A stretch of 64,000 nt of DNA, taken from assembly GCF_019931575.1 (NCBI RefSeq), contig NZ_CP082923.1, positions 2,232,001 to 2,296,000 of the forward strand, read 5' to 3'. Of the stretch, positions 20,094 to 25,041 are shown one piece after another (the stretch's first letter is position 1; each line of letters starts with the position of its first letter). Made by a program: the position numbers and the translations under genes. The DNA comes from Caulobacter segnis. GTDB lineage: Bacteria > Pseudomonadota > Alphaproteobacteria > Caulobacterales > Caulobacteraceae. A model generated the notes under the pieces. That model was not told where the DNA came from and made no database searches. It worked only from the letters and a program-made list of their open reading frames with translations.

Positions 20094-21047
20094 ATGGATC
20101 GACGCCAGCTACTGATCAATCTGGCCCTTGGCGGGCTCACGGTCTCCGGTCTGGCCGCCTGCTCCGGAGCCGAGAGCGGCCAGCCGGTCCTGAAGGTCGG
20201 CAGCCAGCGCGGCGGCACCAAGGCGGTGCTGATCGCGTCCGGTGCGCTGGAGGGCGTTCCCTACAGGATCGAGTGGAGCGAGTTTCCCGCCGCCGCCCCG
20301 CTGCTGGAGGCCGTGGGCGCGGGCGCCGTGGACCTGGGCGAGGCGGGCGATGCGCCGTTCCTGTTCGCCTATGCCGGCGGGGCCAGGATCAAGGCCGTGC
20401 AGGCGGGCCGCAGTGGCGGCTCGTCGACGGTGATCCTGGTGCGCAAGGATTCGCCGATCGCCTCGCCCGCCGACCTGAAGGGCAAGAAGATCGCGACGGG
20501 ACGCGGCTCGATCGGGCATTACCTGCTGCTCAGGGTGCTCGAGAACGCGGGCCTCAAGCCCACCGACGCCTCGATCGTCTATCTCAGCCCTGGCGACGCC
20601 AAGGCCGCCTTCACGGCCGGCTCGATCGACGCCTGGGTGACCTGGGGCTCCTACGTGGCCCTGGCGCGCCTGCACGACGCGGCGAGGATCCTGGTCGACG
20701 GCGAGGGGCTGCTGGGTGGTTTCGGCTACGAGGCCGCCAGCGAGAGGGCGATCGCCGAAAAGCGGCCGCAGATCGAAGACTTCCTGCGCCGCCTGGCCAA
20801 GGCCCGGCGCTGGGCGGCGGACAATCCGGACGCCTTCGGCAAGGTGCTGGCCAAGGAGACGGGCCTTTCGGAGGAGGTCGCTCTCTATACGGTCCGCCAG
20901 TACCGCATCCTGCCCGCGCCGCTGGGCGAGGACTCCGTGAAGGAGGCGAGGGCGGTGCTCGATCGCTTCCGGGCGGCGGGCGCGGTCAACACGACCCGCG
21001 ATCCGGCGGCCGCCTTCGACGCCTCGTTCAACGGGGCGCTGGCGTGA
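20094..21047 (+). CDS. ABC substrate-binding lipoprotein (SsuA-like), no permease of its own
   Basis: 317-residue periplasmic binding protein. The N terminus MDRRQLLINLALGG is Tat-like and is followed by a lipobox LAAC (Cys23). The mature start KVGSQRGGTKAVLIASGAL, then EWSEFPAAAPLLEAVGAGAVDLGEAGDAPF, is a strong match to the aliphatic-sulfonate binding family. It has GGGAGGG upstream and ends overlapping the next gene's GTG. No permease or ATPase is encoded in this operon, so it probably docks on the SsuBC-like pair at 13227-14848 or on one encoded elsewhere. Confidence 0.9.
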   Translation: MDRRQLLINLALGGLTVSGLAACSGAESGQPVLKVGSQRGGTKAVLIASGALEGVPYRIEWSEFPAAAPLLEAVGAGAVDLGEAGDAPFLFAYAGGARIKAVQAGRSGGSSTVILVRKDSPIASPADLKGKKIATGRGSIGHYLLLRVLENAGLKPTDASIVYLSPGDAKAAFTAGSIDAWVTWGSYVALARLHDAARILVDGEGLLGGFGYEAASERAIAEKRPQIEDFLRRLAKARRWAADNPDAFGKVLAKETGLSEEVALYTVRQYRILPAPLGEDSVKEARAVLDRFRAAGAVNTTRDPAAAFDASFNGALA

Positions 21048-22618
21048 GCGAACCGCTGACCCTGGCGACCGACGTGCTGGTCATCGGCGGCGGCCTGGCC
21101 GGCGCCTGGGCGGCCGTGGCGGCCGCTCGCGAAGGCGCGACTGTCGTCCTGGTCGACAAGGGTCGCTGCGGGACCAGCGGCGTCACCGCCACGGCCGGTC
21201 CCGGTCACTGGTGGGTTCCGCCCGAACGCCGCGAGGCGGCGGTGGCCGACCGGCTGCAGCGCTCGCTGGGTCTGGGCGACCCGGACTGGATGCGTCGGAT
21301 CCTGGACCTGACCTGGACCAGCCTGCCGGGCCTCGCCGACCACTACGCCTTCTCGACCGACGAGCGGGGCGAGGCGCAGTACCGCGCGTTGCGCGGGCCG
21401 GAATACATGCGGGCCATGCGCGCCTACGCCCTGGCGGCGGGCGCGCGGATCCTTGACCACCATCCGGCTCTGCAACTGCTGCGTCACGGCGACGGGTCGA
21501 TCGCCGGCGCGGCCGGCGTCGCCCTGCGCGGCGAGCGGCCGTGGACGATCCGGGCGGGGGCGGTCGTGCTGGCCGCTGGCGGCACCGCCTTCGCGTCGCG
21601 CCTGCTGGGTTCGGCGACCAATACGGGCGACGGCCTGCTGATGGGCGTCGAGGCCGGGGCCGATCTCTCGGGCATGGAGTTCACCAACTACTACACCGCC
21701 TCGGTGGCCGGCACGAACATGGCCCGGTCGATGGCCTACAGCTTCGCCCGCTGGTTCGACGCCGACGACAACGAGCTGGACATCCCGAACGGCCCGAACG
21801 TCACGCCGCTTCTGGCGCGGGCCCTGTTGAAGGGGCCGCTGTTCTGCCGACTGGACCGGATCCCCGAGGACATTCGGGCGATCATGCCTGAAGTGCAGCC
21901 CAATTTCGTCTTGCCGTTCAAAAGGCTTGGCGTCGAAACCTACCGTGATCGCTTCGAAGTGACGCTGCACGCCGAAGGCACGATCCGGGGTATCGGTGGG
22001 CTGCGCGTCGACGACGATGACTGCCAGACCGCCGTGCCCGGTCTCTACGTCGCCGGGGACAACGCCAGCCGCGAGCTGGTCACCGGCGCGATCTCGGGCG
22101 GCGGCGCGGTTAACTCGTCCTGGGCGCTGTCGTCGGGACAGTGGGCCGGCGCGGCGGCGGCGCGGCGCGCGCGTTCGACCGGCGCGCGCGAGACGGATCT
22201 GGTGATCGCCACCGGCCAGGCTGGCCTGACGCCCCGCCGCAACGCCGGGGCGTTTGACGTCCCCGGCGCCGTCCAGGCGGTGCGCGAGGAACTGAACGCC
22301 TACGACAAGAACATCTTCCGCCGAGGCGACGCCCTGGCCGCCTCGCTGGCGCGCCTGGACGGGATCTGGCGCGAGCTGGCCGATCACGGCCGGGCCCAAG
22401 GCCGCGCGGGCCTGCGGCTGCGCGAGACCGCCGCCCTGGTCGCCGCAGGACGCTGGAGCAAGGCCGCGGCCCTGGCGCGCCGCGAAAGCCGGGGCATGCA
22501 TCGCCGGGAGGACGCGCCCGGCCTTGATCCGCGCCTTTCCAGCCGCCAGCGCGCTCAGGGCCTGGACCGGGTCTTCACGCGGTTCGAGCCAATCGCCGCG
22601 CAGGCGGAGGTCGCCTGA
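21044..22618 (+). CDS. AprA-like FAD-dependent oxidoreductase
   Basis: 524-residue flavoprotein of the fumarate reductase/adenylylsulfate reductase alpha superfamily. The FAD motif VLVIGGGLAGAWAAVAAAREG is followed by VDKGRCGTSGVT; AVVLAAGGTAFASRLLGSATNTGDGLLMG is the classic superfamily segment and GLYVAGDNASRELVTGAISGGGAVNSSW the C-terminal FAD contact. It is about 100 residues shorter than dissimilatory AprA. The GTG start overlaps the binding-protein stop (GTGA) and its TGA overlaps the ferredoxin ATG, so a tight AprA/AprB-like complex is expected. I infer a cytoplasmic redox reaction on a sulfur compound; the direction and substrate are unknown. Confidence 0.82.
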   Translation: MSEPLTLATDVLVIGGGLAGAWAAVAAAREGATVVLVDKGRCGTSGVTATAGPGHWWVPPERREAAVADRLQRSLGLGDPDWMRRILDLTWTSLPGLADHYAFSTDERGEAQYRALRGPEYMRAMRAYALAAGARILDHHPALQLLRHGDGSIAGAAGVALRGERPWTIRAGAVVLAAGGTAFASRLLGSATNTGDGLLMGVEAGADLSGMEFTNYYTASVAGTNMARSMAYSFARWFDADDNELDIPNGPNVTPLLARALLKGPLFCRLDRIPEDIRAIMPEVQPNFVLPFKRLGVETYRDRFEVTLHAEGTIRGIGGLRVDDDDCQTAVPGLYVAGDNASRELVTGAISGGGAVNSSWALSSGQWAGAAAARRARSTGARETDLVIATGQAGLTPRRNAGAFDVPGAVQAVREELNAYDKNIFRRGDALAASLARLDGIWRELADHGRAQGRAGLRLRETAALVAAGRWSKAAALARRESRGMHRREDAPGLDPRLSSRQRAQGLDRVFTRFEPIAAQAEVA

Positions 22619-23681: not shown

Positions 23682-23694
23682 ATCGGAGCTTTCA

Positions 23695-25041
23695 ATGTCT
23701 TCTCCCGAAACCCTTGGGCGTCAGCTGAAGCTCGGCTTCATCCTGCACGGCGTCGGCCCCGGCTGGGGCGATTGGCGTCACCCGGACGCCCAGCCCAACG
23801 CCAGCACCAACTTCCAGTTCTACAAGCGCCAGGCCCAGGTGGCCGAGGCCGGCAAGTTCGACTTCCTGTTCGTGGCCGACAGCGTCTACATCACCGAGAA
23901 GTCCAGCCCGCACTACCTGAACCGCTTCGAGCCGCTGACCATCCTGTCGGCCCTGGCCGGCGCCACGAACAATATCGGTCTCGTGGCCACCCTGACGGTC
24001 AGCTACAGCGAGCCGTTCAACGTCGCCCGCCAGTTCGCCTCGCTGGATCACATCAGCGGCGGCCGCGCCGGCTGGAACGTCGTCACCTCGTGGCTGGAGG
24101 GCAGCGCCGCCAACTACAGCCGCGACAAGCACTACGCCCACGACGTCCGCTACCGCCTGGCGGGTGAGTATCTGGACGTGGTCCAGGGCCTTTGGGACTC
24201 GTGGGAGGACGACGCCCTGACCTTCGACAAGAAGGGCGGGCAGTTCTTCGATCCGGCGAAGCTCCATACCCTGAACCACAAGGGCGAGTTCTTCTCGGTG
24301 AAGGGGCCGCTTAATATCAGCCGCTCGCCGCAGGGGCAGCCGGTGATCTTCCAGGCCGGGGCGTCCGAGGACGGCAAGGCCTTCGCCGCGCGCCGGGCCG
24401 ACGCGATCTTCGTCTCGCACGAGGAGATCGACGCGGCCAAGGCCTACTACCAGGACATCAAGGCCCGCGCCGCGAGCTACGGCCGCGACCCGGACCAGCT
24501 GCACGTGCTGCCCGCCGCCCGGCCGGTGGTCGGCCGTACGCCCGACGAGGCCGAAGCCCTCTACAAGGAACTCACCGAGCTGGTGTCGCTGGACAACGCC
24601 CTGTCGATGCTGGCTCGGCCGTTCAACGAGTACGACTTCAGCCAGCACGATCCCGACGGCCCGTTCCCGCTGGAAGCCGCCGCGTTCGGAGCCAATTCCA
24701 ACCAGAGCGCGGTCAACCGCATCGTCGCGGCGGTGAAGGACGAGAACCTGACCCTGCGCCAGGCGGCCCTGCGCTTCGCCACGCCGCGCGGCCACTTCGT
24801 CGGAACGCCCGAGCAGGTCGCCGACAGCCTGCAGCAATGGTTCGAGGAACGCGGCGCCGACGGCTTCGTGCTGTTCGAGAGCCTGCCGGGCCAGCTGGAG
24901 GCCTTCGTCGAGCTGGTCGTGCCGATCCTGCAGGCGCGGGGGCTGTTCCGCACCGAGTACGAAGGCTCGACCTTCCGCGAGAGCTTGGGGCTGGATGTCC
25001 CGGTCAACCGCTACGCCGGGGCGTTGGCGGCCGCCGAGTAA
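23695..25041 (+). CDS. FMN-dependent monooxygenase, NtaA/SnaA/DszA type
   Basis: 448-residue luciferase-like monooxygenase of the nitrilotriacetate monooxygenase component A/DszA branch. Characteristic blocks are [13 protein letters not shown] [86 protein letters not shown], and [26 protein letters not shown]. Family members use FMNH2 from a separate reductase to cleave sulfones, sulfonates or aminopolycarboxylates. No reductase is encoded in this operon; the one at 2380 is a possible supplier. It is the last gene of the operon and is followed by a strong terminator. Confidence 0.9.

Follow-up and report, generated by a model that had tools for sequence, protein, structure and literature searches.

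An operon behind a TonB receptor gene

We analysed a 64,000-nucleotide (nt) stretch of the Caulobacter segnis genome (the window; G000:C1:2232001-2296000 of a genome that is a single contig of 5.17 Mb), and within it five genes at 20094-25041 on the forward strand. They encode a substrate-binding lipoprotein, a flavoprotein, a ferredoxin, a peroxiredoxin-like protein and a monooxygenase (Table 1). The first-pass annotation, which was made from the sequence alone, had described these as coupled genes directly behind a TonB receptor, and its coordinates, overlaps and family assignments hold. All five reading frames are as described, and are tightly spaced. On sequence evidence, the flavoprotein and ferredoxin belong to the Asf family of redox proteins.

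The gap between the end of the receptor gene and the binding-protein gene is 11 nt. The binding-protein and flavoprotein genes then overlap in GTGA, the flavoprotein and ferredoxin genes in TGATG, and the ferredoxin and peroxiredoxin-like genes in ATGA, while 13 nt containing GGAG precede the monooxygenase gene. These overlaps are real and support a single transcript; the further idea that they imply a stoichiometric set does not follow from them. The true start of the receptor is probably downstream of the first TTG. Beyond the operon, the inverted repeat could possibly serve as a shared terminator of the two convergent genes, as read from its letters, and was not among the sites returned by the terminator scan. 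That scan gave 5 terminator-like sites against a shuffle mean of 3.9, and 0 promoter-like sites against 0.4, and was not used.

Table 1. Features of the operon and of its surroundings in the window (ABC, ATP-binding cassette; aa, amino acids; FMN, flavin mononucleotide).
Feature	Position	Strand	Basis or remark
Flavin reductase gene	2383-2925	-	In same island
SsuB-type ABC ATPase, start approximate	13230..14006	-	PF00005
SsuC-type ABC permease	14042..14899	-	BPD_transp_1 over cut-off; PRK11365 260.4 bits, under cut-off of 347
LysR-type regulator, AsfR-like by position only	14978..15814	+	PF00126/PF03466
TonB-dependent receptor, operon gene 1	17293..20082	+	Pfam plug and barrel; kept with operon in 15/15 same-genus loci
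SsuA/AsfC-type sulfonate-binding lipoprotein	20094..21047	+	TIGR01728; LAAC lipobox from translation
AsfA-family flavoprotein, 524 aa, GTG start, fumarate-reductase/AprA superfamily	21044..22618	+	FAD_binding_2 and fumarate-reductase C-terminal domain
AsfB-family ferredoxin, 130 aa, two CxxCxxCxxxC motifs	22618..23010	+	Fer4 domains
Peroxiredoxin-like thioredoxin-fold protein, motif GCPACN	23007..23681	+	AhpC-TSA PF00578
FMN-dependent NtaA/DmoA-family monooxygenase	23695..25041	+	TIGR03860
Perfect inverted repeat, 13 bp, TCCC loop	25068..25097	.	Between operon and convergent receptor gene; read in sequence

Profile searches confirmed the five proteins as first read: an SsuA-like lipoprotein, a flavoprotein of 524 residues, a two-cluster ferredoxin, a CxxC (CPAC) peroxiredoxin-like protein and a DszA/NtaA-type monooxygenase. 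The binding protein scored 210.1 bits against SsuA_fam (over the cut-off of 163.5), and its nearest solved structure is a periplasmic aliphatic sulphonates-binding protein (2x26). Each of the eight Cys residues of the ferredoxin is retained in 78-80 of 80 aligned rows, and the CPACN motif of the peroxiredoxin-like protein is invariant (29/29 rows). The monooxygenase scored 556.5 bits against TIGR03860 (NtaA/DmoA), over the cut-off of 279.7. In the ranking of its structure matches YtnJ/MoxC came first (6ask/1tvl, E ~1e-158), followed by nitrilotriacetate monooxygenase (3sdo), and then by 7e36 and DszA (5tlc, E 8e-95). We take YtnJ, the nearest solved relative, to be CmoJ. The substrate of CmoJ is an S-alkylcysteine sulfoxide, and a sulfenic acid arises in the CmoJ pathway, as given in the accessible part of the source (PMC10863075). 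The same genome has a second NtaA-type monooxygenase (G000:C1:1186719-1188023), which is 54% identical to the operon copy.

Identity of the flavoprotein and ferredoxin

The published asf system is that of Pseudomonas putida S-313. In the available portion of a review, asfRABC comprises a binding protein, an ABC transporter, a reductase/ferredoxin pair and a LysR regulator; transposon mutants in asfA did not use aromatic sulfonates, with aliphatic sulfonates unaffected; and AsfAB is credited with only a presumed electron-transfer role, as electron supply for oxygenation (PMC4267179). AsfA and AsfB also appear in the Cupriavidus metallidurans CH34 genome paper, the available text of which names them as Rmet_4334/5 (PMC2864759). 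The window flavoprotein has a single match on the CH34 megaplasmid, with 45.7% identity over 523 aa. An AsfB-like gene follows this match, and ABC permease, ATPase and binding-protein genes are nearby on the other strand. The record has no gene tags there, and we infer that the match is Rmet_4334. The Cupriavidus AsfA gene is preceded on its own strand by a fatty-acid-desaturase-family gene (L031:5711-6742), a possible alternative oxygenase partner.

In the window, the two-[4Fe-4S] ferredoxin gene is immediately downstream of the flavoprotein gene, as in the Asf family, and a stretch of about 12 kb holds every element of the published asf cluster, namely a reductase, a ferredoxin, a binding protein, an ABC transporter and a LysR regulator. 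The first-pass annotation had seen an AprAB-like redox pair within an operon for organosulfur uptake, and this is supported. Its suggestion of an undescribed system is not supported, the pair being relatives of the published AsfA and AsfB.

To place the window protein among its relatives we used a tree of 77 rows: 63 AsfA-type, 4 AprA and 10 of the succinate dehydrogenase (SDH)/NadB type. Alignment A3 took in the window protein and 53 of 80 named loci; L123 and L134 were dropped for a match length not divisible by three, and the other 25 by eye for diversity. A branch with support of 100/99, recovered in 100% of 200 bootstrap trees, separates the AsfA-type rows from all others. Within them, a 17-row subclade (99/95) holds CH34 AsfA, two rows from Bradyrhizobium and others from actinobacteria (including a Williamsia member), cyanobacteria and Paenibacillus. 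The window AsfA falls outside this subclade, with rows from Caulobacteraceae, Pseudomonas and further taxa, nearly all of them proteobacteria, the deep order of which is not resolved. The nearest named AsfA relatives of the window protein are from Caulobacter.

Some Bradyrhizobium genomes have two AsfA-type genes on one contig (L106/L146; L110, L113, L115), which are ~57-59% and 45-47% identical to the window protein; L146, a row of the CH34-type subclade, and the window-type L106 come from one genome. Which type does S-313 have? Twelve Pseudomonas/Azotobacter genomes were selected because they carry a window-type AsfA; with CH34 AsfA as the query, each of the 12 gave just one family member at E 1e-40 or better, namely the window-type locus. 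Therefore, S-313 AsfA is likely to be of the window type.

The active site differs from those of AprA and fumarate reductase

An AlphaFold2 model of the flavoprotein had a mean pLDDT of 88.3. Foldseek placed SDHA first, MtPAPSR of Methanothermococcus fourth (TMq 0.79, 20% identity) and AprA (1jnr) at rank 31. Profile comparison returned the same families, with MtPAPSR alignable almost end to end. The flavoprotein is no closer to AprA than to fumarate reductase, SDH, MtPAPSR or L-aspartate oxidase. Against the adenylyl-sulfate reductase alpha model (NF005331) it scored 42.9 bits, far under the cut-off of 557, and the best match in its own genome to the aprA model (TIGR02061) had an E of 3.1e-6 and was not over the cut-off. 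The comparison of the active site with those of AprA and fumarate reductases, which had been proposed as a check, showed that the substrate residues of both are missing.

The top sequence and fold matches, SDHA/FrdA, would suggest a fumarate reductase, SDH or similar dicarboxylate enzyme. However, the position of the His that binds flavin adenine dinucleotide (FAD) covalently in SDH is Gly (Gly46) in all 63 AsfA rows, as it is in all 4 rows of AprA. SDH/NadB have HYxMGG and GANRLG motifs, which we take to be dicarboxylate-binding; these are absent from the AsfA rows, where EGTxRGxGG and GAxSGGG-type sequence is found instead. A His at position 309 of the window protein, near the substrate motif, is not conserved (4 of the 12 rows of alignment A1). 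Conserved dicarboxylate residues had been named beforehand as a refutation of the first-pass reading, and the search for them found none in the AsfA rows. Moreover, none of the nine genes scanned (14978-27502) encodes a membrane anchor or an SdhB-type protein, and the neighbours in other genomes are organosulfur genes. With the covalent-FAD His and the substrate motifs absent, we rejected a fumarate reductase or SDH, and consider either of them, or a similar dicarboxylate enzyme, scarcely credible.

A second possibility is an AprAB-type reductase of adenosine 5'-phosphosulfate (APS) or 3'-phosphoadenosine 5'-phosphosulfate (PAPS) in an assimilatory role, as for MtPAPSR. The subunit make-up is the same, the covalent-FAD His is lacking as in AprA, and MtPAPSR is the fourth Foldseek match and aligns almost end to end by profile. 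In AprA, the residues that contact APS are Asn-A74, Trp-A234, Arg-A265 and His-A398, according to the part of the structural report available (PMC2211403); we verified this numbering against the 2fja sequence. At Asn-A74, Trp-A234 and Arg-A265 all 63 AsfA rows show a gap, and at His-A398 they have I, V or M instead of His, with the proviso that loop alignment at such a distance is approximate. The Trp of the AprB CWEC motif, which would correspond to Trp-B48 beside the cluster, is Gln in 77 of the 80 AsfB rows. MtPAPSR, by comparison, is reported to retain the proposed catalytic residues of AprA in the accessible part of its description (PMC10322725).

The background of sulfate assimilation also argues against this role. 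The genome has genes for CysD and CysN, CysH and CysI (from translations and PF01507 matches). Genome-wide, there was no match to ATP-sulfurylase (sat, PF01747), and the one match to dsrA, at 43.7 bits, was under the cut-off of 392.85. These profile searches agree with the earlier remark that sat and dsr are lacking (dsr was checked by dsrA, and qmo was not searched for). With CysD/N, CysH and CysI present and sat absent, an APS-reductase role is unlikely, and sulfate assimilation does not seem to need the AsfAB pair. We rejected the APS/PAPS reductase, and rate it as very improbable, since AsfA lacks the substrate residues, along with the loops that would bear three of them, and the genome has CysH and CysD/N. 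By its aligned residues, AsfAB has the architecture of AprAB and not its active site.

In place of both known sets, AsfA has an invariant or near-invariant set of its own: E311-G-T-x-R315-G-x-G-G, R343-E344, W22, W56 and W360.

Conservation of the neighbourhood

The flavoprotein gene is patchy, being found in 15 of 37 genomes of the genus and 7 of 299 drawn from across the phylum (the window genome is included in both). Weak same-genus matches (E 6e-7 to 1e-3) resemble the SDH/NadB type and were not counted; ten of them are the outgroup rows of the tree. In all 15 same-genus genomes with a full-length flavoprotein the order receptor, binding protein, flavoprotein, ferredoxin, peroxiredoxin-like protein is kept, and it is thus not due to chance. 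The place of the monooxygenase gene varies: it is directly next in 6 of these loci, in 2 it follows on the same strand after ~1.2 kb, and in 3 it is upstream on the opposite strand. It was not found in the remaining 4 stretches, 3 of which end <0.5 kb past the peroxiredoxin-like gene.

More widely, we examined 80 named loci (L077-L156), the nearest 80 of at least 471 relatives, using tblastn of window proteins (E 1e-6). As these are the nearest relatives and 13 loci are shorter than 15 kb, the counts favour closely related genomes, and for the short loci they are minimum values. AsfB is near AsfA in 79/80, at 200 nt or less in 78 (233 nt in L143; none in L152). An SsuA-type protein was found in 56/80, a luciferase-like monooxygenase (LLM) in 56/80 and both in 44/80. 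At least one of binding protein, SsuC and LLM is close by in 74 of the 80, and so the conserved sulfonate-type neighbourhood, the absence of which had been set beforehand as a potential refutation, is present. Twenty control stretches of 17.5 kb, taken at round coordinates from five Caulobacter genomes and not matched to other taxa, gave binding protein 2, SsuC 2, SsuB 2, LLM 0, peroxiredoxin 0, glutathione S-transferase (GST) 2, LysR 1 and rhodanese 1.

Similar gene sets occur on plasmids. The Pararhizobium gei and Paracoccus yeei plasmid records have the monooxygenase, binding protein, permease, ATPase, FAD protein and ferredoxin in another order, and that of Sphingobium TomTYG65 has monooxygenases, the flavoprotein-ferredoxin pair and a peroxiredoxin.

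The surrounding organosulfur island

An organosulfur island of roughly 25 kb surrounds the operon, which forms one of its arms. The operon has no permease gene of its own, an apparent lack that is resolved by the divergent SsuC and SsuB genes next door (13230-14899); a reading without a transporter was rejected for the same reason, these genes being on the opposite strand. The LysR-type regulator has relatives of 53-57% identity in 7 non-Caulobacter AsfA loci. Between the LysR and receptor genes lies a gene for an FAD-NAD(P)-binding protein (NAD_binding_9; 15814-17217, reverse strand).

The reverse-strand genes at 2383-14899 encode, nearest the operon, SsuC, SsuB, an acyl-CoA-dehydrogenase-fold protein, a D-2-hydroxyacid dehydrogenase, a class II aldolase and a second SsuA-type protein. 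Farther to the left are a TonB receptor, a cysteine-dioxygenase-like protein, a four-rhodanese protein, a GST, an SsuD-like monooxygenase and a flavin reductase. The second SsuA-type protein scored 145.7 bits, below the SsuA_fam cut-off of 163.5, and the SsuD-like protein 245.4 bits, below the SsuD equivalog cut-off of 518.2. We would guess that the acyl-CoA-dehydrogenase-fold protein is DszC/SfnC-like. The four-rhodanese protein (530 aa, 4746-6335) has relatives of 51-69% identity near AsfA in 12 non-Caulobacter loci. Rhodanese genes are near AsfA in 13/80 named loci, and dioxygenase-like genes likewise in 13/80.

Proposed function

The data above suggest that this is an asf-type operon, which probably scavenges sulfur from organosulfonates or related organosulfur compounds during sulfate starvation. 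A bulky substrate would cross the outer membrane through the TonB receptor, and be captured by the SsuA/AsfC-like lipoprotein, which would pass it to the divergently encoded SsuBC transporter. In the cytoplasm, either the NtaA/CmoJ-type monooxygenase, using reduced FMN (FMNH2), or the SsuD-like one of the island would cleave the C-S bond, and the sulfite released would go to CysI. AsfB, as a two-[4Fe-4S] ferredoxin, and AsfA, as an FAD flavoprotein, would form a small redox enzyme that aids the oxygenation of particular substrates. The sulfenic acid in the CmoJ pathway prompts a guess, by analogy, that the CPAC protein might reduce a sulfenate or thiol product. We infer every chemical step of this scheme, together with the substrate, the regulation, the direction of electron flow, the non-covalent state of the FAD and the partner of AsfAB. 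Among the titles and abstract beginnings listed by searches of open-licence literature, we found no account of purified AsfA or AsfB.

Several observations weigh against an asf-type scavenging operon. The published AsfA with which the window protein was compared is that of CH34, and the window AsfA is outside the 17-row subclade of CH34 AsfA. This separate subclade, and the presence of both types in some Bradyrhizobium genomes, mean that the substrate may differ. The CPAC peroxiredoxin-like gene was found in 28/61 loci outside the CH34-type group and in 0/19 inside it (the tree assigns 12 of these 19 loci to the group, and kinship the other 7). Two of the 20 controls carry binding protein, SsuB and SsuC together, and many SsuB/SsuC matches in the 80 loci have only about 27-40% identity, and so could be other ABC transporters. 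Finally, the layout differs from the published asf genes, as far as the available text describes them: here the binding-protein gene precedes asfA, and the TonB receptor and peroxiredoxin-like genes are extra.

How might AsfAB contribute? The first-pass annotation had thought plausible a low-potential redox enzyme acting on an imported sulfur compound, before or after monooxygenation. A redox pair is indeed encoded in the organosulfur uptake operon, while its direct action on the compound is one of the rival explanations, which we put forward tentatively: AsfA would itself be a catalyst, with a third type of active site in the fumarate reductase/AprA superfamily, acting on the organosulfur substrate or the monooxygenation product (by reduction or dehydrogenation, for instance) with AsfB as its electron partner, and would be more than a relay. 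Its relatives SDH, fumarate reductase, L-aspartate oxidase, AprA and MtPAPSR each bind and convert a substrate, its own conserved set replaces both known substrate-binding sets, and the flavin reductase of the island could already feed a monooxygenase. Yet these residues might be conserved for folding or for holding the flavin, no substrate is assigned, and the S-313 phenotype, in so far as the review is available, equally fits a helper role (PMC4267179). A more specific version is rather doubtful: AsfA of the window type would be a flavoenzyme linked to the ferredoxin, and a third catalytic type by virtue of its EGTxRGxGG sequence and RE pair, and would prepare or finish the organosulfur substrate with a dedicated CPAC peroxiredoxin-like partner.

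Alternatively, AsfAB could give reduced flavin or electrons directly to the co-encoded luciferase-type monooxygenase, in place of an NAD(P)H:flavin reductase. The monooxygenase and AsfAB share one operon with no flavin reductase gene in it. Luciferase-type monooxygenases of the NtaA/DmoA kind, however, use diffusible FMNH2. The island has a flavin reductase gene, and the monooxygenase gene is not directly next in 9/15 same-genus loci (in 4 of the 9 it was merely not found in the stretch). Direct supply is unlikely in our view, even though it accords with the published idea, in the portion available, of electron supply for oxygenation (PMC4267179).

The sulfur of soils is mostly organic, and the marker gene for aromatic-sulfonate desulfurization is asfA, as stated in the accessible text of the same review (PMC4267179). 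The conserved operon, the comparison of residues and the division into two subfamilies provide concrete targets, namely residues to alter and partner genes (the monooxygenase and the peroxiredoxin-like gene). They also advise caution, in that 'AprA-like' need not imply sulfate reduction.

Comparison with known systems

The operon shares with asfRABC of S-313 and AsfAB of CH34 a flavoprotein reductase with a two-cluster ferredoxin, a binding protein and an ABC transporter, and with S-313 also a LysR regulator. In contrast to these, its AsfA is in another subclade from that of CH34, to which its identity is 45.7%, and an NtaA/CmoJ-type monooxygenase gene is part of the operon.

The island has in common with the Ssu system (SsuEADCB) an SsuA-family protein, an SsuB/SsuC-type transporter and an SsuD-like enzyme. 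It differs in having the additional AsfAB pair and in that its SsuD-like protein is under the SsuD equivalog cut-off. The nearest solved relatives of the operon monooxygenase, YtnJ/CmoJ and DszA, are alignable over almost its full length; CmoJ acts on an S-alkylcysteine sulfoxide, and the substrate of the operon enzyme may be another.

AprAB and MtPAPSR resemble AsfAB in the superfamily fold, the lack of the covalent-FAD His and a two-[4Fe-4S] partner with the eight-Cys pattern. Unlike AprAB, AsfAB is without the substrate residues, the loops bearing three of them, the CWEC Trp and the long AprB tail. The kind of system is known, and the point of interest is the chemistry of AsfAB, the active site of which is unlike those of its characterised relatives.

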